From assembly GCA_963930775.1 (NCBI GenBank), contig OZ005702.1:5952001-6016000 (forward strand): a stretch of 64,000 nucleotides of DNA. Direction: 5' to 3'. The translations under genes were made by a program, and so were the position numbers. The notes beneath the pieces were generated by a model. The model ran no database searches. It was given only the letters and a program-made list of their open reading frames with translations, and was not told the DNA's origin. The stretch comes from Cliona cf. orientalis. Its lineage: Eukaryota; Porifera; Demospongiae; Clionaida; Clionaidae. Shown piece by piece: positions 5,850 to 39,745 of this stretch (its first letter is position 1; every line of letters starts with the position of its first letter).

Positions 5850-6515
5850 ATGAATGCCACAAATGCTACAACAAGGGACTTGTTCATCAGGTTAGTGTCA
5901 AACGTACAAGTATACTATGAAGTTTGCATTTGTTTAAATATCCCAAGAAACCTATTCGTTGAGGAAAGACTGCCCAGAGGTAGTGCAGGAATATTTGCAG
6001 GTATTTTATATACATTTTATGTTTTCCTTGGTATACATGTATCTCTGCTACCCATATAGGCTTCATTAATAAAATGACTCTCCAAGGGTATTGTAAGACC
6101 AAGTTTGCCAGACTTGACGTGGACGGTAATAACAGGCCTGCTATCGAACAAGCAAACTCAGGCTCAATGGAGGCCCAATCCTTATGTCGGCAACATCCAC
6201 ATCTGACGAAGACGATAGCCAGGTGGACAATACGGTTGTGATTAGACCAGACGAGATGATAGAAGACCTGCAACCATAAGAGTGGAGCTCCCACGAAGAG
6301 TGACACGACCCACTCGAGCATCTGTGTGGAAATGGGAGCTGAGGATGGTGGCGGAGGCCAGGTATACCATCGTCACCATGGACACAAACTTAGTTACCCT
6401 CATCCTGGACGGAAAGGCCTTCAGGAGCAAGCTCTGGAATGCCATGGCCATCCTGCCAGCGCTGGCAACAGCCGTTGCTGTGGCGCTAATGCACAACTTT
6501 GGAGAGATTCTATGA
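5850..6515 (+). pseudogene. R1 gene exons 1-2, copy A
   Basis: Exon 1 starts at ATG 5850 (MNATNATTRDLFIRLVSN) and ends at 6000. A 59-base GT-AG intron (6001-6059, gtattt to catatag) joins it in phase to GFINKMTLQGYCKTKFARLD. The frame then runs through an acidic STSTSDEDDSQVD-like stretch, which is disturbed by small indels in this copy, into VELPRRVTRPTRASVWKWE, an EARYTIVTMDTN and ILDGKAFRSKLWNAM block and a LMHNFGEIL end. The intron is kept at the same site in copy B, so R1 spreads as DNA, not as processed mRNA. The protein family is not recognised. Confidence 0.5.
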
Positions 6516-6570
6516 GTAAGAAGATCTGAGCTGGCCCACTGCTGGCTGGCTGCCACTCCTCCTCTTAGAT

Positions 6571-6935
6571 ATATTCAGAGATAGACACAAGTTGGCTACA
6601 GAAACACTTCGAGTTCGTGGATGCAGCTGCTAATGAAATGGGGAAAATGCCCACGTTATGTGGTATCATTGTCCAAGCTCTAAAATCGTACCCACGGTTG
6701 GTAGTGGGGAAGAAGTTGGAGGTAATCTCCTTTGGGATAACCTTTGTACTAAGTAATTTTGGTGGTGGTGGTGGGGAGTTACTTTGATGGTGAACTAACT
6801 GATGGGCGGAGGGTGATAAGGCTTGTTGGCTTTCGAAATGCACAAAGAGACGTACTGGAATCGTACTACAAAACGAATCGACCAGTGAAGGCTGCCGCAT
6901 CCAATTCAACCAAACCAACCAGAAACTAGAAGTGG
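6571..6935 (+). pseudogene. R1 gene, OB-fold-like exons, copy A
   Basis: Following a TCCTCTTAG acceptor-like site, one frame reads a YIQR- or EIDT-type start, then FEFVDAAANEMG, PTLCGIIVQALKSYP and VGKKLEVISFGITFVLSNFG. After a (GGT)n run the frame changes to YFDGELTDGRRVIRLVGF, NAQRDVLESYYKTNRPV and a KLEVAIKDYTKI strand. The strand pattern and DG(R/Q)RVIRLVGF resemble an RPA-type OB fold, i.e. single-strand nucleic acid binding; this is inference from pattern only. The frame change at the GGT run occurs in all three long copies, so it is either an intron boundary I cannot resolve or an ancestral slip. Confidence 0.4.
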
Positions 6936-7008
6936 CGATTAAAGATTACACAAAAATTTCTCTTTCTTCGGAAGTGTGTGAAGATGGTAAAAGTCTGAAA
7001 CCAGTTAG

Positions 7009-7203
7009 TACCTGAAGATACAATGTAAACATTTCACTAGCGAGGAACACGATAAGCTGAGCCAGCACGTATCAGGTGTATACAGAATGTTTGTTGACAG
7101 CTGCAAAGAAGTGATGGCTAGTCGTGATGGTGGCCTGCACAGAGCTGAGGTGGTTAGATTACTGGAGGCTCACAACCAAATGCCATTGGACTGCCAGTGC
7201 TAG
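7009..7203 (+). CDS. R1 gene terminal exon, copy A
   Basis: From a CCAGTTAG acceptor the frame is open for 65 codons to TAG 7201: YLKIQCKHFTSEEHDKLSQ, then VSGVYRMFVDSCKEVM, then RAEVVRLLEAHNQMPLDCQC. The copy C equivalent (21691-21885) is also intact, while copy B is shortened by a stop. A helical composition with SEEHDKLSQ and LLEAHNQ suggests a small alpha-helical tail. Function is unknown. Confidence 0.5.
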   Translation, partial: YLKIQCKHFTSEEHDKLSQHVSGVYRMFVDSCKEVMASRDGGLHRAEVVRLLEAHNQMPLDCQC

Positions 7204-7501
7204 CTGGCCATAAGGTGTAAGTGTAAGTGTACTCACACTACTCCTATGGGAATTTACCTCCCACACTACTACACCTGTGAGGATGTAGGGGTACAAGCAA
7301 CTTGGAGCGTGGCAAACGCTAACCCTAACTTGTGGCATAACGAGAACCAGTATGGAACACACTGATTATTGATTATCAATTTTCAATTTTTTTGATTATT
7401 AAGTTTGATTACAAAATTTAGACTGGTGATTTTGAATTTAGAATATTTTTGTTACTTTATCGAATAATTATTGTACGTGGGAGTTACTGGATGAAGCTGT
7501 A

Positions 7502-7530
7502 TGTGAACGCATGAAGTAGAAATCAGAAAT
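7502..7530 (+). repeat. left terminal inverted repeat of the transposon
   Basis: TGTGAACGCATGAAGTAGAA continues as ATCAGAAATT. It pairs with 10560-10588 on the opposite strand, perfect from base 2 to base 23 and then weaker. The flanking TA is at 7500-7501. Confidence 0.85.
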
Positions 7531-7701
7531 TCGGTACAGGACTACATTTTGAGATATGGCCACTTAAAGTTTGACACTACTAAATTCTGGTGTTAAATAG
7601 TAATGCTTTCAGTACAACGTTTGCTATTGTACACTAACACTATACTATGATGTAATGAAATAATTACTAATTAATTAACCGATTACATCATGCTACGGAG
7701 G

Positions 7702-7850
7702 CTTTAAATAGAATGCGTTCTGTGCGAGTTCGTGCAGGCTCAGTTCAAGTTTGTGCGTGTTCTGGCAAGTTTGTGCGTGTGCTTGGCAAGTTTGTGCGTG
7801 TGCTTAGCAAGTTTGTGCAAGTTTAGTCCACCGTGTTTGGCAAGCGTATA
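7702..7850 (+). promoter_or_regulatory. TATA-like box and 21-base direct repeats upstream of the transposon gene
   Basis: A TTTAAATA box (7702-7709) is followed by three successive direct repeats that begin caagtttgtgcgtgt at 7746, 7766 and 7787, with a shorter fourth from 7808. The last unit ends about 25 bases before the first in-frame ATG (7851). Repeated 20-21 base units just 5' of a transposon gene could be transposase-binding or promoter elements. This is inference from position. Confidence 0.45.
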
Positions 7851-8777
7851 ATGGCCTCCAGGAAAGAGAAGCAGCGGCAGAATTATCTTGATGGAGTGGC
7901 CAGAAGACCACACTCGCACTCCAGAACTTTGAGAAGATCATTAGAAGGAGCAGCTGCTGCTTCTTCTGCCTCAACTTCCAGCATCTGTCCACAGTGCTAT
8001 CCAGTCTTGGCCCGCTACATTAGCGTGTTCAAATCAATGCAGCATTCAGGAACCGAGCTCAAGAAGAGAAAAAGATCCAACCCTTACCCGAAGAAACAGG
8101 ATACCGAGTTTCAACACCATCGAGATATCACCAAGCAAAATGAGTGGCTTAGGTCGAATGTTTTTGATTCTCTAGGTAACCACACACACACACACACCAC
8201 AATCTCTCTCACACACACACACTCACACAAACTCACTCTCTCTCTCTCACACACACACACACACAGGCAACTACCTGTATTGCTCCAATTGCATCAAGGC
8301 TGCCTTCGGTATCTCAAACGACAGATTAGCTCGTCAAAGGAGCATCAAGCGTAAGCAGGCTCAGATTCCAATTTCTACTCATACTAAACTGGAGGTTGAG
8401 GAAGGTCGCCTAGGAGACTATGTCATCATGCCTGCAGATATTGAAACGTCGTTCAAAATTTGGTGGAGAGGGCTTGATCCGTCAACGGTGGTGGATGTGA
8501 GGTATCCCCATGAACGACACGGAAATGCAGGGAGAACTTCCAACTCAGCCAAGACAAGCGTCCAGCAAGATTTCTTGGAATTTGTTGATCTGAACAGCCA
8601 GCCAAACGGCCGGTCAGCTGACTCGACAGGTCCAACTCGCTACTTCCTGCCGAAGTTTACCACCATTCAGACACCAAAGCCCAATGTATGTCACTACGAA
8701 GAACGTGTTCAAAGATCTGTAGTGGGAGAATTCAATAGGGCACAACGGGAAAGAGGTGGGCAACAACACACCATACG

Positions 8778-8828
<51 letters not shown>

Positions 8829-10116
8829 CTCTCTCTCTCTCTCTCTCTCTCTTACACCACATAAGCTCACTCAGTCACTCACTCTCACACACACACACAC
8901 AGGTAGGGGGGAGTGCTCGAACAGTTCGTCTCACAACTGGTTGAAGCTGCGTCCCAAGTTAGCGATCTGTCCTCACCAGATGGACTATTGCGACACGTGC
9001 AAGAAACGAAACGTGGAGATCCATGGAAAACAAACCACGGTCAATCGTCTACTCCAGTCTTGTACGGCTGATTCTGAGGAGGTGAAGAAGATAGACGAAG
9101 AGATTACTTCCCTCAAGCGTGATCTAGAGAATCATCGACAACAGGCTGAGAAAGCTCACACGTACCACGTAGATGTAACAAAGCGTTGCAAGGCAGAGTG
9201 GGAGGAAATGGAGAAGCTAGAAGCTAAATCAATACTGAGCGATAGCGAGAAGCAAAGATTTGCAGTTCTTCGCAATGGCTTTAATCTTGTTATTTCAGCC
9301 GACTACCAGATGGCAAAGATAGTCCCTTATTGGGGTCTGACAGCTCAGCCTGGCTGTACCTACTATCTACAGAAATTAAGTCACGATGTGTTCGGTATTG
9401 TAGATCACTCTACTGGGAAATCTACAGTTTACCTATTGGATGAACGCCTAGGGCCGAAAAACACAGACCACACTGTGTCATACATCACTGACTTCATCAA
9501 CAAATGTGCACCATGGATCAAGCGTGTCCACTTGTTCCTGGATAATGCTTCGAGCACCAATAAAAATTTTTACGCGATGGCTTGGGCTCATGAAATGGTA
9601 CAACAGAGCAACCTTTCTTTCCTTCGAATATCGTTTCTTGTGGCAGGGCACACAAAGTTTGCCCCTGATCTTCTCTTTTCGAGTATCTCCCAATCCTACA
9701 ACAGAAGTGACGTGTTTACTACACAGGAATTGAGTGAAATTGTCTCTGCACATGCAACAGCTGTTGTAGACGATGGACAGATTGTGTGCAATTGGAGAGA
9801 TAAACTTACAAAGTATAGTAAACTACCAGGCATTCGCTCTCTTCACGATTTTCTCTTCTTGAAAAATAGCGCTAGTAACACTGTAGTAGCCAAAGTAAGA
9901 AAGACGTGCTTCTCCGGCCCCTATGAGAACACTACAATGCACATTGCTAGTGGTCGTGACATAAGTGAAGATGTCATCCCTGACCCTGATCGAGAAAATT
10001 ATCTTGCCCTACACAAGATCAAAAGTCTGAGTGACTCAAAGATGAAGCATCTTCAGCAGATGTACAAAGACTTTGTGCCCAGGGACCGTTGTTTACCCTT
10101 TATTACACTGCCATGA
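7851..10116 (+). CDS. DUF7869-like putative transposase, three exons
   Basis: Exons 7851-8175, 8267-8755 and 8903-10116 join in phase 1 at both junctions to give 676 codons including the stop (675 residues). The first ATG in frame is 7851 (MASRKEKQRQNYLDGV). In order: a basic Ser/Arg-rich N-terminus; CPQC and YLYCSNCIKAAFGIS cysteine pairs that look metal-binding; a linker; a YCDTCKKRN cysteine pair; a coiled coil of about 60 residues (ITSLKRDLENHRQQAEKAH); and a C-terminal domain with SADYQMAKI, LFLDNASSTNKNF and VAGHTKFAPDLLFSSISQ. The last three motifs match what I remember of the DUF7869 family, whose spaced aspartates resemble an RNase H-like DDE core. Location between matching inverted repeats makes it the likely transposase. 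The spliced frame is fully open. Catalytic assignment is inference. Confidence 0.75.
8176..8266 (+). other. intron 1 of the transposon gene, microsatellite
   Basis: Starts GTAACCACACAC and ends CACACACAG; 91 bases. Apart from the five-base donor it is built from CA and CT dinucleotide runs. Splicing turns GG at the boundary into a glycine codon and continues in NYLYCSNCIKAAFG, a family-like motif, which supports the intron. Without splicing, the frame leads away from that motif. Confidence 0.75.
8756..8902 (+). other. intron 2 of the transposon gene, microsatellite
   Basis: Starts GTGGGCAACAAC and ends CACACACAG; 147 bases, largely (CA)n, then (CT)n, then CA again. It is a multiple of three and stop-free, so retention would add 49 residues rich in Thr-His and Leu-Ser. 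Splicing joins RAQRERG to RGECSNSSSHNWLKL. Confidence 0.7.
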
Positions 10117-10588
10117 AGGATCATTGTGTCGATTAATTTTTATGAGTGTTGTGCCATGCATTAATGTTGTCTAAAATTGTTAATATTGTGTGTATTGTGT
10201 TGCTGTTGTATGGTGAAAGTTAAAGACTTTTTGACCCATTAAATTTCTAACAGTAACTGTTGAAATCACCCGCGCACACAATCTCTCTCTCACACACACA
10301 CACCACACAATCTCTCACACACACACACAAGCTCTCGCTCTCACACACACACACACATCCAGCTTTCTCTCAAGGTGAAAGTTCAAATTTGACTTATTCC
10401 TATAGTGCAATAACAATGGTACAGTATGAATGCGGTTTATATTCTACTTAATGCAATAAAAACTACAAGTCAAAATGCATCAAAATTTTGATACAAGGTA
10501 ACTAAGGTACCAGACTACCTATCTACAGAAAAAAAAAAAATTTTCGCACATCGCACGCAAATTCCGATTTCTACTTCATGCGTTCACG
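10117..10588 (+). other. 3' region of the transposon with a third CA/CT tract
   Basis: After the TGA at 10114-10116 the sequence holds GT-rich stretches and an ATTAAA (10238-10243) that could be a polyadenylation signal. A third (CA)n/(CT)n tract follows at 10274-10358, flanked by gtaact at 10253 and ctcaag at 10369-10374, which could be an untranslated-region intron. Last come an A-tract at 10529-10541 and the right terminal repeat. No further coding frame is convincing. Confidence 0.5.
10560..10588 (-). repeat. right terminal inverted repeat of the transposon
   Basis: Reads gatttctacttcatgcgttc acg at its end; its complement matches the left end at 7502. The flanking TA is 10589-10590, followed by R1 sequence aagtctccaaataatag. 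Confidence 0.85.
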
Positions 10589-12215
10589 TATAAGTCTCCA
10601 AATAATAGTATCCCCAATGCAGATGACGGATGTCAGCACATCTACGTGTCCTGCCAAACTGAATAATTGCCAATTATGTATAAGCAAAACGTCTAGCACT
10701 TCAGAGTAATTATCTCTCTACTGTGTGGATACTATCTGAGACTTATTTTAAAGTGGAGGAGGGGAGGGAAGTAGAGAGCCAGCAGGTGATGGATATTATT
10801 ATGAAACTTAATGAGCTGCTGAAGGCTGTGGCGAAGGAAGCGGCTGCCAGTAAATGCATGTAGAGGACATCACTGACAAGAAGGAAAAAAGTCACAAAGC
10901 ACATCATTCAATATAGCAATCAAATGTAGTCTTCACTGATCCAAAAGTCTTTGACGAAGTAAACCAAAATTTGCTGGTCACAGCGCTAGTGGCAACTTAG
11001 CCAAGAAAAAATTGAAGATATAACGACAAACCTGAACGATAGCTGGTTGTTGATAAATATAATTATGCATCCATAAGAAGGTAGTTAGATGCTCAATAAC
11101 AATTTACTTTTTCTGTGCTAATCATTGCACACTACATGTGGCGTCATGGCTGAGCAGCAAGTCTCCATCGCCCCTTCTCAGCTCGCTAAAGCCAAAAGTA
11201 CAGTATGTAATCTAGATAATACTGAGGATGTTAGCAGTTATGATATAATAACATTATCAACATTTTTCAGACAAGCAAGATGCCGAGTAAAGTGGCCGAT
11301 GGTGGTGGAGTGGAAATAATATGTATACTTCTTTGTATGGAGAGTAAAAAGATAAATCAGAGAGGGAGTCAGCTCTGAACAAGCTCTTCAATAATATCGT
11401 AAGTAGCTACACATTATTCGTTTATTACGCTTCCGTCCAATGAAACCACCCCGCCTCCACATCTTGCAGAGTTGGAGTGCTGAAATTTCAAATGTGTGTT
11501 CACACAAGAAATGGAATAAGCGATATGTAAAAACATTGTAAATGGTAGTTGTGAGATGACAAAAAATTCAAGTTCATTTGGTTGGTAGGAACTTCTTAAA
11601 AGATGAATGTACGTATCAAAGGATCTCTGCACATGCTCCTTGCCACCAAGCATGGACGTCCACAGCTGTTTAATGATATTACCATTTTTGCAGAAGCATG
11701 CATCCCGAAGATAAAGAGCTCCTTTCTGGCTACCAATGATTCCAGGTTTGCCAGGGTAGTGACTAGAATTGAATATCTACTGCTGCAGTAATAGTAGCTA
11801 TAATTAATACGTATCGACTGTAACACTATACTATATTATTATTCGGCCAGTGCTTGGGATAAGGGCGGTGTGAGGGATTTGTGGAGAAAATTTTATTACG
11901 TAAAACTGAGTGTCCAGCGTACATCAACTTGATCTTGATGTTCACACACATTGCAGAAAAGATCCAAGAGGTCTTGTCAAATTTGGTTGTATAAGGGAGG
12001 ATATGCCTCACGGTTTTGTTGTGGAATACATTGAATGCAGCATTGTGTAGCATGCCACAGAAAAATACTCTCCAGATTTATCTATATTTTGACTATATCG
12101 CATGTTTTTTCTCCAGTTAAAAGCACGACGCAGCCACAACCTGTCCATAATATCGATAGCAGCTGCAGCCGGTTCCACTCGCCTTAAGAATTCTTCAAAC
12201 CTTCTCTATGTTTTT
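10589..12215 (+). repeat. R1 repeat copy A, right part
   Basis: Resumes R1 after the transposon and aligns with copy B from about 17032 to about 18590. Relative to copy B it has an extra block of about 475 bases (roughly 11325-11800), part of which is also found at 25605-25760, and it lacks about 310 bases present in B at 17890-18205. Short frames in the shared part (for example a TFFRQARCRVKWPMV exon near 11260) are too fragmentary to call as genes. Confidence 0.7.
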
Positions 12216-13629: not shown

Positions 13630-13767
13630 AAACCTTACTACTGTTATTGGAAAGTGTTTAGTCCATTTCCCCAAAATGCCAAGATATAATTGACCCAACA
13701 ACACCATATATGTGAGTTGTCCACAACATCAAAAATAACAAATGTAATGATGGACATGTTAAAAATT

Positions 13768-15095
13768 TACAAAGCAAGGGCAAACTTTATAGTTTTAGTA
13801 CACAAGTCTCCAATGACCATACCACCAACCATCATTAATTGGCCGTCAGGGACAATAGCTGCGAAGCATGAACTTCGACCTATCGACATGTTACTAATCT
13901 CCTCCCAAGTATCAGTATCTGCATTATACAAGTTAACTGCCGTGCTACAAGAACCACCTTCACCCAAGCTCCGCCCACCAATGGCCAATAGCTGACCACT
14001 TAGTGACACACAAGTGCAGTCCGCTAGAGGTAGGTTAGCAATGATACTCCATACATTATCATCATCATCACTAATCTGCTTGGGAATATCCGATGTTTCT
14101 GTAGTACCTCCGCTATCTGGTGATGGGAGCTGACTATGTGATGACTGAAGGAGGTCTGCCAGTGAGCATACAAATGCTGCCGTTGAAGATGTCCCACCAC
14201 TAGTCTTGCCTCCTAATAAGTAGACTCTGCCATTGCAAACAGTGGCTGAGGAAAGTTTTAATCCAGAGGGCAAACTAGCAGCTGTAGACCACTGTAAGGA
14301 GTTGGTATCCATCAATTCCACTGTTGCTAATGCCTTTTCCTCCTCTGTAGATCCTTCACCACCAGCCACAATCAGAACACTCTCACTACTCAGGCAAGTA
14401 GTCCAGCAGCGCTTTGTTGGCATTGGAGGAAATACCTCAACCCAACACCGCATATCAACATCACCTGGAGAGTACGGACCAATACTCAAATCACTGTCCT
14501 TTTCACTCACGAGGCTGAAGAGCTGATTGGTGTTCCACCCACCAACAGCTGTCAGCATGCCATTGACTATAACCAGAGAGCAGCCCTGACAACGAGTCAA
14601 CAATCTGACACCACTTCTTATGGACTGAATCATATGCATAGATCTCAGATGAGTAACCATTCTTAAAGTAGACAGTGGAATCAGTGACTACGGCATCACT
14701 CCATCTGCATAGTGCTACTGGAGCACTCCCACTGCAGTATCATACTAACATCTCTACTCTTATTCCGGTTTTCTTCCACCTCCCTGTAATCGAGATAAGC
14801 TTCTTGTTGTAGGCTGTTTGAACTATACTTCTTACGAACTGGAGGTGGAGGAGGCTTAAGCTCATTGAGATGTCTTTGTAGCTCTGCTACCATTTGATTG
14901 CTCTCCTGTAGCTGTTGACGGAGGCTGGTTATCTCCTCATCTTTTGTTTGTTTCTGTTGTATTTCACGTTGCAATGCTTGGTCGAGCTGTATAATCTCCT
15001 CTTTCATGGCTGAAAGTGTAAGCTCCCATTCTTCTAACTGGTTCATGACCTGCTGAAGGTGGTGTGCCTGTTCAGCGAGCTCATCTTTCATCCTA
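13768..15095 (-). pseudogene. coiled-coil plus kelch-repeat gene, broken
   Basis: Read on the minus strand, 15095-14700 encodes a coiled coil (MNQLEEWELTLSAMKEEI, LQREIQQKQTKDEEITSLRQ) and a proline run (LKPPPPPVRKKY). From about 14700 to 13768 come kelch blades: WSDAVVTDSTVYFKNGYSS, VIVNGMLTAVGG, VLIVAGGEGSTEEE, RVYLLGGKTSGG, QLLAIGGRSLGEGG and QLMMVGGMVIGD. Two one-base frame slips are visible, one between the coiled coil and the first blade (about 14728, WEC instead of WERAPVALCRW) and one after YDSVHKKW (about 14607). The 5' end is cut at 15095 by R1 copy B. Kelch/coiled-coil proteins are usually adaptors or scaffolds. This copy cannot make the full protein. Confidence 0.75.
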
Positions 15096-16193: not shown

Positions 16194-16462
16194 TGCATGA
16201 CTTCGGAGAGATTCTATGAGTAAAAAGATCTGAGCTGGCCCACCTCTGGCTGGCCGCCACTCCTCCTCTCAGATATATTCAGAGATAGACACGAGTTGGC
16301 TACAGAGATACTTTGAGTTTGTGGATGCAGCAGCTAATGAAATGGGGAAAATGCCCACGTTATGCAGTATCATCGTCCAAGCTCTAAAATCGTACCGACA
16401 GTTGGTAGTGGGGAAGAAGTTGGAGGTAATCTCCTTTGGGATAACCTTTGTACTAAGTAATT

Positions 16463-16708
16463 TTGGTGGTGGTGGTGCGGAGGTACTTTGATGGTGAACT
16501 AACTGATGGGCAGAGGGTGATAAGGCTTGTTGGCTTTCGAAATGCACAAAGAGACGTACTGGAATCGTACTACAAAACGAATCGACCAGTGACACTAGAA
16601 GGCTGCTGCATCCAATTCAATCAAACTAACCAGAAACTAGAAGTGGCGATTAAAGACTACACAAAAATTTCTCCTTCTTCGGAAGTGTGTGAAGATGGTA
16701 AAGTCTGA
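16463..16708 (+). CDS. R1 gene, OB-fold-like exon, copy B
   Basis: The frame reads YFDGELTDGQRVIRLVGF, NAQRDVLESYYKTNRPVTLE, GCCIQFNQTNQKLEVAIKD and YTKISPSSEVCEDGKV. The arrangement of short strands around a (D/N)G(R/Q)RVIRLVGF turn, a conserved LEGC and EVAIKDYTKI is what RPA-like OB folds show, so nucleic-acid binding is a reasonable guess. Copies A and C carry the same exon with one small indel each (loss of TLEG in A, an extra ACATACGT in C). Splice sites are not certain. Confidence 0.45.
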   Translation: MVVVVRRYFDGELTDGQRVIRLVGFRNAQRDVLESYYKTNRPVTLEGCCIQFNQTNQKLEVAIKDYTKISPSSEVCEDGKV

Positions 16709-18052
16709 AACCAGGTAGTACCTGAAGATACAATGTAAATATTTCACTAGCGAGGAACACGATAAGCTGAGCCAGCACGTATCAGGTGTATGCAGAATGT
16801 TTGTTGACAGCTGCAAAGAAGTGATGGCTAGTTGTGAGGGTGGCCTGCCCAGAGCTGAGGTGGTTTGATTACTGGAGGCTCACAACCAAATGCCACTGGA
16901 CTGCCAGTGCTAGCTGGCCATAAGGTGTAAGTGTAAGTGTACTCACACTACTCCTATGGGAATTTACCTCCCACACTACTACACCTGTGAGGATGTAGGG
17001 GTACAAGCAACTTGGAGCGTGAAAAACGGTACAAGTTCCCAAATAATAGTATCCCTAATGCAGATGATGGATGTCAGCACATCTACGTGTCCTGCCAAAT
17101 TGAATAACAATTGCCAATAATGTATAAGCAAAACATACAGCACCTCAGAGTAATTCTCTCTCTACTGTGTGGGTACCATTTGAGACTTATTTTAAAGTGG
17201 AGGAGGGGAGGGAAGTAGAGAGCCAGCAGGTGATGGATATTATAGTGAAACTTAATGAGCTGCAGAAGGCCGTGGCGAAGGAAGCGGCTGCCAGTAAATG
17301 CCCGTAGAGGATGTCACTGACAAGAAGGGAAAAAGTCGCAAAGTATATCATTCAATGAAGCAATCAAATGTAGTCTGATCCAAAAGTCTTTGACAAGTAT
17401 ATCAAAATTTGCTGGTGACAGCGGCAACTTAGCCAAGAAAAAATTGAAGATATAAGGACAAACTTGAATGATAGCTGGTTGTTGATAAATATAATTATGC
17501 ATCCATAAGAAATGATGATCTTTGGTAGTTAGATGCTCAATAACAATTTACTTTCTTCTGTGCTAATTAATGCACACTACATGTGGCATCATGACTGAGC
17601 AGCAAGTCTCCCTCACTCCTCCTCAGCTCGCTAAAGCAGACAAGAAGGGAAAGTCACAAAGCACATCATTCAATGAAGCAATCAAATGTAGTCTTCACTG
17701 ATCCAAGTCTTCGCTAAAGCCAAAGTACAGTATGTAATCTACTGATTTAGACAATACTGAGGATGTTTACAGTTATGAAGTAATAAAATTATCAACATTT
17801 TCCAGACGAGCAAGATGCCGAGAAAAGTGGCCGATGGTGGTGAAGTGGAAATAATATGTATATAATTAATACATACAGACTGTAAGATTATATTATTATT
17901 ACTATCATTAGTGACACACTATATAGCTATCTGTATTTACTACGATCATGACATACTGACTCTGCACAAGCAGTAAATAGTTTTCTGTACTATACTATTA
18001 TATCAGGTCATGCAGGTAGTAGACCATTGAGGTAGGCTAATGGGCATCTATC

Positions 18053-20837: not shown

Positions 20838-21191
20838 CTCAATGGAGGCCCAATCCTTATGTCATCAACATCCACATCTGACGAGGACGATAGCCAGGTG
20901 GACAACACGGTTGTGATTAGACCCAGACCAGATGATAGAAGACCTGCAACCGTAAGAGTGGAGCTCCCACGAAGAGTGACATGGCCCACTCGAGCATCTG
21001 TGCGGAAATGGGAGCTGAGGGTGGTGGCGGAGGCCAGGTATACCATCATCACCATGGACACAAACGTCGTTGTCCTCATCCTGGACGGAAAGGCCTTCAG
21101 GAGCAAGCTGTGGAATGCCATGGCCACCCTTCCTGCGCTGGCAACAGCTATTGCTGTGGCGCTAATGCATGACTTCGGAGAGATTCTATGA
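20838..21191 (+). CDS. R1 gene exon 2, best-preserved copy
   Basis: Here the frame runs unbroken from STSTSDEDDSQVDNTVVIR through DDRRPATVRVELPRRVTWP, TRASVRKWELRVVAEARYTI, ITMDTN, ILDGKAFRSKLWNAMATLP and VALMHDFGEIL to a TGA that sits directly before GTAAGA. That donor-like site after the stop means either the gene ends here or the reading frame enters the next exon by another junction. The LDxxxxxLILDG pattern is also seen in 24800-24840 and 28050-28110, suggesting a wider host family. No biochemical role can be given. Confidence 0.5.
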   Translation, partial: LNGGPILMSSTSTSDEDDSQVDNTVVIRPRPDDRRPATVRVELPRRVTWPTRASVRKWELRVVAEARYTIITMDTNVVVLILDGKAFRSKLWNAMATLPALATAIAVALMHDFGEIL

Positions 21192-21240
21192 GTAAGAAGA
21201 TCTGAGCTGGCCCACCGCTGGCTGGCCGCCACTCCTCCTC

Positions 21241-21652
21241 TCAGATATATTCAGAGATAGACACGAGTTGGCTACAGAGATACTTTGAGTTCGTGGACGC
21301 AGCTGCTAATGAAATGGCCACGTTATGCGATATGATCGTCCAAGCTCTAAAATCGTACCCACAGTTGGTAGTGGGGAAGAAGTTTGAGGTAACCTCCTTT
21401 GGGATAACCTTTGTACTAACTAATTTTGGTGGTGGTGGTGGGGAGGTACTTTGATGGTGAACTAACTGATGGGCGGAGGGTGATAAGGCTTGTTGGCTTT
21501 CGAAATGCACAAAGAGACATACGTACTGGAATCGTACTACAAAATGAATTGACCAGTGACACTAGAAGGCTGCATGCCGCATCCAATTCAACCAAACCAA
21601 CCAGAAACTAGAAGTGGCGATTAAAGACTATACAAAAATTTCTCCTTCTTCG
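21241..21652 (+). pseudogene. R1 gene, OB-fold-like exons, copy C
   Basis: Contains EIDTSWLQRYFEFVDAAANE, VGKKFEVTSFGITFVLTNFG and, after the GGT run, YFDGELTDGRRVIRLVGF. A local duplication (acatacgtac) and another small insertion shift the second half relative to copy B. Confidence 0.4.
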
Positions 21653-21690
21653 AAAGTGTGTGAAGATGGTAAAAGTCTGAAACCAGTTAG

Positions 21691-21885
21691 TACCTGAAGA
21701 TACAATGTAAATATTTCACTAGCGAGGAACATGATAAGTTGAGCCAGCACGTATCAGGTATATGCAGAATGTTTGTTGACAGCTGCAAAGAAGTGATGGC
21801 TAGTCGTGAGGGTGGCCTGCCCAGAGCTGAGGTGATTAGATTACTGGAGGCTCACAACCAAATGCTATTGGACTGCCAGTGCTAG
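21691..21885 (+). CDS. R1 gene terminal exon, copy C
   Basis: Open for 65 codons after a CCAGTTAG acceptor: CKYFTSEEHDKLSQHVSG, RMFVDSCKEVMASREGGLPR and LLEAHNQMLLDCQC. Same length as copy A, with a handful of conservative differences. Confidence 0.5.
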   Translation, partial: YLKIQCKYFTSEEHDKLSQHVSGICRMFVDSCKEVMASREGGLPRAEVIRLLEAHNQMLLDCQC

Positions 21886-22175
21886 AAGTGTAAGTGTACT
21901 CACACTACTCTTATGGGAATTTACCTCCCACACTACTACACCTGTGAGGATGTAGGGGTACAAGCAACTTGGAGCGTGGCAAACGCTAACCCTAACTTGT
22001 GGTATAACAAGAGGAGAACCAGTATGGAACGCACTGATTATTGATTATCGATTTTCAATTCTTTGATTATTGAGTTTTGATTACGAAATTTAGACTGGTG
22101 ATTTTGAATTTAGATTTATTTTGTTACTTTTCTTATTGAATAATTATTGTACGTGGGAGTTACTGGATGAAGCTG

Positions 22176-22177
22176 TA
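22176..22177. other. empty target site for the transposon
   Basis: R1 copy C reads gatgaagctgTAcaagtctcc here, whereas copy A has the 3,087-base element between gatgaagctgTA and TAtaagtctcc. It documents the TA duplication directly. Confidence 0.85.
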
Positions 22178-22330
22178 CAAGTCTCCAAATAATAGTATCC
22201 CCAATGCAGATGACGGATGATGTCAGCACATCTACATGTCCTGCCAAATTGAATAATTGCCAATTATGTATAAGCAAAACATCTAGCACTTCAGAGTAAT
22301 TCTCTCTCTACTGTGTGGAGATTTGAGATT

Positions 22331-35989: not shown

Positions 35990-37188
35990 CCGTCGACAGT
36001 CTTCGGCAACAACTCAAAGCACGAAACCTGTCGTCCACTGGAAATAAGAAAGCACTGGCTGAGCGCCTCAGTACCCCGTGGCCGCCAGCGCAGCCACAGC
36101 AGCACAGATCGATCGTCTGGTAGGAGCGGGGACGACTACCATGGCCCTCACTCTAGGTCCTGCTCTCGATCGCCCATAGCTACTCTCCAAAGGGCCACCC
36201 AGCGACATCAAACTTCGAGCCAGCGTGTACGAAGGCGCTATCGCAGTCGCTCGGCATCACAAAGCCAGCTCAGTACAAGTTCAGACGACAGCAGCGTCAG
36301 CCCAGCTCCCGAGAAGCATACTCGTTACAAGCGCAGAGGAGAGGGCAAGCACAAGAAGAAACACCACACACAGCGCAGGAGCCCAAGCACTAGCTAAGAA
36401 TCATCTACCAGCAAATCCTCGTCTTCTTCACAATCCAGCTCAAACCGATATGTAGGCGCCACCATCATCGTCACAAGCACTATCACACTCATACTAGCCG
36501 AAAGGACCGTCTACCCTCACGAACGAAATCAAAGCTACAACGGCTAGCAGTGTCATGCTGCCCTCCTCTACCGGAGAAGTATTCAACAAGGATTGCCCGT
36601 GGTGAGTACATATCATTCGATAAACTAACCATACCCGAGAAACGCCATGATAAACACCCCTCCAAGCGCTCTGGGAAGGTGGTATCAGACCTGGCTAGCT
36701 GGTTAGAAGCATGGAACAGATACGTGGGGGTAATCATTGCGTTACACCCCTCACGAGCCCTGGACATGCTTAAATATCAAACACTGATCACCACAGCATT
36801 TCGCGACTACCCGCCGGATGCATGCATAGACTATGACCGCCGATTTCGGCAGCTGGCAGCTAAGGACAAAACCTTAGCCTGGGGTAAATACAAGGAAGAT
36901 ATTTTCGTATGGTGTTTCTCACCAAAGCCTTCAAACGCTAATACAGGAAATTCTGCTAACTCACATCATTCCTTTCGCTTCGGCAAGCCAGGAGTCTTCA
37001 CACGATTGGGCCCAGCCACTGACTCAGTCACACACACTCCCGCAGGAGCAGAAATCTGCATACGTTTCATTTCAGCCAGGGGTTGCACCAAAGGCAACGC
37101 TTGCAAATTCAAGCATATGTGCAACAAAAAAGGGTGTGAAGGGGAGCACTCAGCTAGCAAGTGTCCCTCCAAACACCAGCCCGCTTAA
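35990..37188 (+). mobile_element. gag-like part of the DIRS fossil
   Basis: A SAP-like segment near 36000, a Ser/Arg-rich low-complexity stretch, then a gag-like domain (SDLASWLEAWNRYVGVIIAL) and a CCCH-type zinc-binding segment (CTKGNACKFKHMC) close to the end. Fossil, broken. Confidence 0.65.
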
Positions 37189-37194
37189 GCGTAT

Positions 37195-38125
37195 AATTAC
37201 CCCCCTACGACGCCTTCAGTTCGAGGCAGAGTTAAGGAGCCACGCAAACCCAGCTTGGGTACAAGAACTACTCAAAGGAATTGACAATGGCGTCTCACTG
37301 GGTTACCAGACAGAGATGCCAGCGCATCTCACATAACTTAGTATCAGCATTTAAGCACCCACACGTAATAGACGAAGAGCTCAACAAAGAGATTACAGCT
37401 CAGAGAATAGCGGGACCGTTTGACACCCCGCCAGTACAAAACTTGCAATGCTCGGGAGTGGGAGTTGTCCCAAAGAAAACAGGTGGTTAGCGGATGGTTA
37501 TGCATCTATCAGCCCCAGCTGAAATTAGCATTAACGATGGCATCAATAAAGACGAGTTTACCTTGCATTATAGCACCATCGATGACGCCGTCCGAATGAT
37601 TAATAAACTAGGGAGAAACACACTACTGGCAAAAGTAGACATAAAGAGTGCCTTCCGCACTGTACCTGTGAGACTGGAAGATAGAGAGCTGTTGGGAATA
37701 TACTGGAAGCAAAAGTATTATGTTGACTGCTGTTTGCCTTTGGCCTGCGCTCCGCACCCTTCATCTTTAACTAGTACGCAGAAGCCCTGGAGTGGATTCT
37801 ACGTAGCAACTACCACATACCAGATACCATCCACTATCTCGACGATTTTTTGATGGCAGGCAAACCCTCATCACCGGATTGTGAGCTAGCACTAGGGCGC
37901 ATGTTGGAGGTGTGTAGACGCCTTGGCTTCCCTATTGCACAAGGAAAAGTAGAAGGACCAACCAGGGTGATCATCTTCCTTGGCATTCTCCTAGATACAG
38001 AAAGCATGGAGCTGCGCCTCCCTCAAGATAAGCTGGAAGCACTAGTGTCACTTCTAAATAACTGGAACGAGAAAAAGAAGAAGATAACAAAGAGAGAATT
38101 ACTTTCTCTGATAGGCTAGCTATCT
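37195..38125 (+). mobile_element. reverse transcriptase part of the DIRS fossil
   Basis: Motifs seen: GVGVVPKKTGG, KVDIKSAFRTVPV, HYLDDFLMAGKP and LRLPQDKLEALVSLLNNW, in the order usual for DIRS reverse transcriptases. Fossil, broken. Confidence 0.8.
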
Positions 38126-38129
38126 TTTG

Positions 38130-38735
38130 CAGCCAAAGCTGTCGCTGCAGGAAGGCTCTTCTTGAGACGTCTTCTCGACCTGAGCACATCAGTACAAAAG
38201 CTCCACCACCACATCACACTCTCGGCCAGCGCCAGAGCAGATATCAAGTGGTGGAAAGACTTCCTTCCCAGCTGGAATGGAGTCAGTATAATGTTACAAA
38301 CCAACCGGACAACGGCAGCTGATCTCAAACTCTATACAGATGCATCTGGTACGCTGGGTTTCGGTGCATACTTCCAAGGAGCCTGGATCATGGGCACATG
38401 GTCACAGCAGCAGCTGGCTAATTCAATCCAGGGGAAAGAACTTTTCGCAATTATTGCAGCAGCAGCAGTCTGGGGCCACAAATGGCAAAGACAGAATATA
38501 TTGGTGTACTGCAATAATCTGGCCATTGTACAGGTCTGGCAAGCTAAATGTCCAAAAAATCAGGCACTAGCAACGCTATGCTGAAAGCTATTCTTTCTCG
38601 CTGCTAAAAATAACTTTAATGTAGCACTGAAACATCTCCCAGGCATTCATAACTGCATTGCTGATGCTTTATCCCGCCAACAGGTACTCCAATTCAAGCA
38701 GCTGGCACCGAAAGCAGACACAGAAGCCACCAGCA
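38130..38735 (+). mobile_element. RNase H part of the DIRS fossil
   Basis: LKLYTDASGTLGFGAYFQGA, IQGKELFAIIAAA and LPGIHNCIADALSR are RNase H hallmarks. Fossil. Confidence 0.7.
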
Positions 38736-38742
38736 TCCCTGC

Positions 38743-39745
38743 ATGGGTGACAAAACTCTAACACTTCGCCTCAAAACGCTGCAAGAACTGGCACTTGCAC
38801 CAGCCACAAAGCGGGCTTATGCCACGGGATCAAAACGCTACATTAAATTCTGTAAGCAGTACAACATTACACCATTCCCGGCCACAGAGCTCACCTTGTG
38901 CTACTTTGCAGCATATCTCAGCGAGCATTGTCAATATGCTACCGTACGGCTATACCTGTCTGCCATAAGAGCTGAGCATCTCAATAGAGGTCTACAAGAC
39001 CCCCTACAGGAAGCAGCACAGTTAAAATTGTTATTGCAAGGACTTCAAAAGCACTCACAGCCCAGGACCAGGCTACCCATCAGCCCAACACTGCTGCAGC
39101 AACTTGTCCTGGCAATCTTGGACGATCCTTTTTTCTGTCAGCTAGATAGGTATCTGTATGCTACGGTGGTCAGCATCACATTCTTTGGGTGCCTAAGAGC
39201 TAGTGAAGTAACCTACCCATCTTCAGACAGCTACGATAGCAGCAGACACCTCACTCTGGAAGATATCACTGTCCAGCACAGGGAAATACACCTCAGAATC
39301 AAATACAGCAAGGCTGACCAAACGGGTGTTGGAGCAACTGTTGTCATCGGACCAAGCAAACAAACCATATGCCCAGTGGAGCTGCTCAAGAAGTTCCTTC
39401 ACCTCAAAAGGCATGCACACAGAACTGATGCTGCCTTTCGGCTCAAGAATGGTTCTCTTCTCACAAGAGCTAACTTGCTATCCGTACTGCATAAAACATT
39501 GAACTCCCTCAACATGCCTGCAGAGCAATTTGGAACTCATAGTTTGCGCACAGACATGCCTGCAGAGCAATTTGGAACTCATAGTTTGCGCACAGGTTCT
39601 GCAACTGCTGCAGCAGAGGCTGGAATCCCGATAAAAATCATTAAGGCTATGGGGGAGGTGGTCCAGTGACTGCTACAGAAGATACATACGCACTCCACAC
39701 CGCACCCTCAGACATCTGACTCACAAACTCTGCACCTCGCAGCAG
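38743..39745 (+). mobile_element. tyrosine recombinase part of the DIRS fossil
   Basis: LAPATKRAYATGSKRYIKFC (core-binding start), ITFFGCLRASEVTYP and GTHSLRTGSATAAAEAG (HxxR box) identify a phage-integrase-like recombinase, the enzyme DIRS elements use instead of a DDE integrase. Fossil, broken. Confidence 0.8.

Follow-up and report, generated by a model that had tools for sequence, protein, structure and literature searches.

A DUF7869-encoding cut-and-paste transposon in the sponge Cliona cf. orientalis, probably a member of the Sola superfamily

What kind of mobile element is built around a protein of DUF7869, a Pfam family (PF25273) that itself carries no function? The question is raised by a locus of the sponge Cliona cf. 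orientalis on contig OZ005702.1, where a stretch of 64,000 nucleotides (the window, to whose positions all coordinates refer) was analysed. The original prediction for this DNA had described a whole transposon with inverted ends and TA flanks, and had suggested that it may be a new type of cut-and-paste element. We found the window element to be a recently mobile cut-and-paste DNA transposon. Its features fit the published description of the Sola superfamily (reportedly described by Bao et al. in 2009), to which we assign it, most likely as a Sola2 element, with a probability of roughly 0.8, as judged by described features; the suggestion of a new type of element is not supported.

Five full-length copies of the element (family A: the window copy and L002–L005) can be found on five contigs of the 217-Mb genome, which is the outcome of the search for further copies proposed with the original prediction. 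They share 97–100% identity, with 3–17 pairwise differences per ~3,000 aligned sites, and all of them start with GTGAACGCATGAAGTAGAAATC and finish with its reverse complement. Their common limits set the boundaries of the window element (Table 1). Within the window, a search for inverted repeats paired positions 7500–7531 with 10559–10590 at 91%. The inverted ends previously reported are present, but they had been placed at 7502 and 10588, each a single base outside the true end; this shift produced both the single mismatch in 23 bases and the apparent TA flanks; once re-bounded, the repeats match at 22 of 22 bases and the mismatched first base belongs to the flank.

Related elements were also recovered with both ends, namely family B (L041–L043; 699-amino-acid frame; ends GTGAAGGCATAGAG), family C (L044; 705 amino acids; ends GTGTGGTGGACTAGG), family D (5′-end in L056, 3′-end in L009; 710-amino-acid frame) and family E (L040; 711 amino acids; ends GTGACAGTCC), together with three non-autonomous copies of 918–932 bp (L058, L061 and L063). 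The coding elements span 2.5–4.1 kb. DUF7869 matches occur in at least 165 stretches of the genome; the counts of two-ended copies cover those with both ends in hand, which are few of these matches and not the whole genome.

The target site was read from 14 two-ended copies, comprising families A–E and the three non-autonomous copies. Identical direct flanks of 4 bp are present in 12 of them and of 2 bp in seven, while flanks of 3, 5 or 6 bp match in none; at every length from 5 to 10 bp, the flanks of all 14 differ. When flanks are paired across different copies, 45 of 182 pairs agree, because ATAT is so frequent as a target; the five duplications other than ATAT (GTAT, ATTT, ATGT, and AAAT twice) are the informative ones. 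The pattern AWWT describes 10 of the 12 duplications, GTAT and ATGT being the exceptions. Four of the five family A copies carry their own duplication. The window copy lies between two GTAT, and two paralogous units of the window without the element read GTAC at the corresponding place, so that the single empty site noticed originally is borne out and joined by a second. TA can be found on both sides at the originally proposed positions in eight of the 14 copies, but a TA target site was rejected, as the 4-bp duplications include AAAT and ATTT.

The predicted three-exon gene, open from ATG to stop with GT..AG introns, was upheld and encodes 675 amino acids. DUF7869 is the only Pfam family above its cut-off in this protein (71.3 bits against a gathering cut-off of 26 bits), and NCBIfam gave nothing over cut-off; the family C protein has a weak, below-cut-off Pfam match to DDE_Tnp_ISAZ013 (E 0.035). 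Three aspartates in SADYQM, LFLDN and FAPD, which had been put forward as a catalytic core, align as D-D-D across relatives in two alignments, with 41 residues between D485 and D527. In the structural model of a bacterial homologue, which adopts an RNase H-like fold, D355, D434 and D476 correspond to D405, D485 and D527. The model's structural matches are to mariner and to integrases, and the closest solved fold is that of Mos1, which itself carries a DDD triad. On the alignments, the homologue model and these matches, the protein is very likely the transposase, and D405, D485 and D527 are its likely catalytic triad. We propose that DUF7869 is the catalytic core of this transposase.

Relatives were detected at ten loci in a scan of bacterial and archaeal genomes; one locus belongs to an isolate, Desulfocicer vacuolatum DSM 3385 (L071), and several belong to bins. 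Stop-to-stop frames of 577–693 amino acids are present at eight of these loci, and all three frames checked pass the DUF7869 cut-off. Each of seven genomes has one match over the cut-off (G007 has another below it). DUF7869 is rare in bacteria. Within the class to which L071 belongs it occurs in 7 of 389 genomes, including four scan seeds, and three other groups have it in 2 of 42, 1 of 143 and 1 of 295 genomes, each count including its seed. The neighbours of L071, judged by eye from their translations, are bacterial in appearance, one resembling part of an IS3-type integrase and another a sigma-54 activator. The element of Desulfobacterales HSG2 (L070) interrupts a signalling-type frame; when that frame was read across the insertion to infer a duplication, no long frame continued. 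Among 11 loci inspected for ends (the fragments L073 and L075, and L087, fell outside this set), inverted repeats flank the gene in six, at 39–43 bp in L067, L068, L070, L071 and L072 and 61 bp in L086; around L066, L069 (which a contig end cuts), L074, L084 and L085 no such repeats were found. No relative was confirmed in viral contigs, and plasmids and phages queried with the L071 protein gave no match. In a tree of 17 rows, the 11 bacterial proteins do not form one clade (p-value of the approximately unbiased test, 1.8e-5), a result to be taken only as a lead because long branches meet in this tree. L084 (G158:C142), whose genome belongs to the same class as L071, encodes a 731-amino-acid protein that clusters with the window lineage instead of the other bacterial proteins, and could be either a real bacterial copy or eukaryotic contamination.

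Our assignment to Sola follows from the size of the element, its DDD triad, its AT-rich duplications of 4 bp and its relatives in bacteria, all of which fit published accounts. As outlined in passages of a 2023 review, Sola elements have a DDD triad, 4-bp duplications, lengths mostly of 2–9 kb, repeats of 11–1124 bp, and hosts that include bacteria and metazoans (PMC10741241). Sola2-type elements of two dictyostelids are described, in part of the source, as having AT-rich duplications, AWWT in D. fasciculatum and ATAT, AAAT and ATTT in the other (PMC3627910). The 22-bp perfect repeats and the coding lengths found here lie within these ranges.

Several observations weigh against this reading. 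The likeness to Sola is one of descriptions, whereas the Repbase rule, as excerpted, relies on proteins finding each other in iterated search at E < 0.005 (PMC4455052). A passage of a 2014 classification assigns Sola and RNases H1 to one clade (PMC3985635), whereas the homologue model has its matches in mariner and integrases. Inspection by eye revealed no clear duplication at the six bacterial elements that have inverted repeats, unlike described Sola. In the sponge, L003, which adjoins an AT-rich simple repeat, and L043 are without matching flanks, and no complete pair of ends was found for L045 (a 67–78% relative of family A) or L038. As aligned, only the window copy and L002, two of the five family A copies, keep a full open frame; the frame of L004 is broken by one internal stop, and those of L003 and L005 are shifted, in L003 possibly through misalignment at an intron full of repeats. 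L009 has Glu in place of the second Asp. The RNase H-like fold was predicted for a homologue with 22% identity to the window protein and is transferred to the latter because its exon 3, folded from single sequence, gave an unusable model (predicted local distance difference test, pLDDT, 40.6); residues 471–478 of the homologue model, around the third Asp, are themselves below pLDDT 50. The structure prediction and fold search suggested originally yielded, for the homologue, an RNase H-like model with Mos1 as the closest solved structure, but no Foldseek match at E ≤ 0.001 (Mos1, the best, at 1.2e-3). BFVD likewise gave nothing at E ≤ 0.001, and of the PDB sequence searches one gave eight matches (best E 0.29) and another none.

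Could DUF7869 instead define a DDD superfamily of its own, distinct from Sola1–3 and all named eukaryotic superfamilies, with the same mechanism, with bacterial insertion sequences that have TGGGG ends and apparently make no duplication, and with no fewer than two lineages common to bacteria and sponge? The lack of any second family above cut-off in the Pfam and NCBIfam searches and of visible duplications in the bacterial relatives would agree with this. So would a passage of a 2017 review, which gives bacterial counterparts for at least six eukaryotic superfamilies, Sola not being among those named (PMC5718144), although the 2023 review places Sola in bacteria too (PMC10741241). The word DUF7869 occurs in no paper of the open-access library searched, which is weak evidence. 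With the triad, the AWWT-like 4-bp duplications, the size, the repeats and the bacterial occurrence all fitting described Sola, we regard a separate superfamily as unlikely. Far less credible is a Tc1/mariner relative inserting at TA: the TA dinucleotides in eight copies and the closeness to Mos1 would suit it, but 4-bp duplications, some of them without TA, contradict it, no mariner family appeared in the Pfam search of the window protein, and the RNase H fold is common to DDE/D families generally. Tc1/mariner membership was accordingly rejected. Kolobok and piggyBac were rejected too, as their TTAA duplication, given in part of the source (PMC9587614), is absent from all 12 duplications, as were Zisupton and KDZ, given the 8-bp duplication ascribed to Zisupton in an excerpt (PMC12730594), a length at which none of the 14 copies has matching flanks.

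It is just as hard to believe that a host or domesticated gene sits by chance between repeats. Such a gene might be suspected where at least 165 matches exist with the ends of few inspected, and where L038 and L045 lack a full pair; for the window copy it was rejected, being contradicted by the empty paralogous sites and by five nearly identical copies, each on a different contig and four of them flanked by a duplication of their own.

A cut-and-paste transposon of the Sola type, most likely Sola2, would encode its own transposase and could be autonomous. Its Cys-bearing N-terminal part, with Cys motifs before the core, may bind the GTG...CAC inverted repeats, and an RNase H-like DDD active site would then free the ends and join them to AT-rich target DNA. 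Joining across a 4-bp stagger, with the palindrome ATAT preferred, would after repair leave the 4-bp duplication. The 0.9-kb non-autonomous copies with similar ends may be moved in trans.

Were DUF7869 a transposase core, many "uncharacterized proteins" would become transposon annotation, among them the products of at least 165 matching stretches in the Cliona genome alone. To our knowledge, the Sola superfamily has been little studied at the bench. The element is a clean candidate for testing transposition in the laboratory, as its copies are nearly identical, its gene is open, its ends match perfectly and its empty sites are known. Were DUF7869 distinct from Sola, it would amount to a new eukaryote–bacteria transposon pairing.

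Table 1. Coordinates of the transposon, its predicted gene and its empty target sites in the window.
Feature	Positions	Strand	Basis
Whole transposon, 3085 bp	7503..10587	+	Limits common to five copies
Target site duplication, 4 bp, left, GTAT	7499..7502	.	Flank comparison; empty paralogue is GTAC
Target site duplication, 4 bp, right, GTAT	10588..10591	.	Flank comparison
Left terminal inverted repeat, GTGAACGCATGAAGTAGAAATC	7503..7524	+	Inverted-repeat search and copy comparison
Right terminal inverted repeat, 22/22 bases same as left	10566..10587	-	Inverted-repeat search and copy comparison
Transposase exon 1	7851..8175	+	GT..AG in 5/5 copies
Transposase exon 2	8267..8755	+	GT..AG in 5/5 copies
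Transposase exon 3, including stop	8903..10116	+	GT..AG in 5/5 copies
PF25273 DUF7869 stretch, residues 428-605	9370..9903	+	Pfam, E 1.1e-19
D405, putative catalytic Asp 1	9301..9303	+	D355, strand 1 of bacterial model
D485, putative catalytic Asp 2	9541..9543	+	D434, directly after strand 4 of bacterial model
D527, putative catalytic Asp 3	9667..9669	+	D476, start of helix after strand 5 of bacterial model; local pLDDT <50
DYCDTC, CxxC metal-binding-like motif	8983..9000	+	Both Cys invariant in 4 sequences (alignment A1) and 8 bacterial (A2)
Empty target GTAC in paralogous unit	22175..22178	+	Alignment of window repeat units
Empty target GTAC, second paralogous unit	17029..17032	+	Alignment of window repeat units

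The transposon is inserted in one of several repeated units of the window (6503–7502 with 10588–11591, 16207–17862, and 21179–22319; aligned piecewise at 88–95% identity), the other units supplying the empty sites. The 10-mer GTTACTGGAT at 7483–7492, 10 bases before the left end, recurs in the 5′ flank of L043, perhaps by chance. Elsewhere in the window, frames resembling a DIRS/Ngaro-like retroelement by eye lie at 36394–39669 (a 154-amino-acid RNase H-like stretch, then a 334-amino-acid tyrosine-recombinase-like frame), and a 306-amino-acid frame with kelch-like repeats, judged by eye from the translation, lies on the minus strand at 13767–14687. An Rfam scan of the window gave no matches. 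By hand count, 109 of the 150 DUF7869 matches listed in the genome sit on contig C1, chiefly at 16–37 Mb, these matches being pieces and not independent genes; C1 makes up 37.5 of 216.8 Mb (17%) and is possibly a repeat-rich or low-recombination chromosome. A further DUF7869 subfamily (L011, L021 and L022), with a D(R/G)M(D/E)Q motif and LDN...RENK(N/D), matches in several disjoined segments, as though introns lay between them.

Among known systems with a solved structure, Mos1 comes closest to the catalytic core in fold and also has a DDD triad, yet Tc1/mariner elements duplicate TA, as stated in part of the 2023 review (PMC10741241), and the PDB searches gave no sequence match to it. The bacterial DUF7869 elements of Desulfocicer vacuolatum (L071), Desulfobacterales HSG2 (L070), Thiomargarita nelsonii (L068) and others have a homologous protein of similar length as their single gene, and differ from the sponge element in their ends, (A)TGGGG in most, and in having no clear duplication. 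The D. fasciculatum Sola2-type element DFa-2 encodes an 888-amino-acid transposase and Fanzor1-bearing relatives exist, according to passages of its description (PMC3627910), compared with 675 amino acids and no second long frame seen in the window element. With Sola2 the sponge element nonetheless has in common a predicted DDD transposase, AT-rich 4-bp duplications, inverted repeats, a similar size range and an occurrence in both bacteria and animals.
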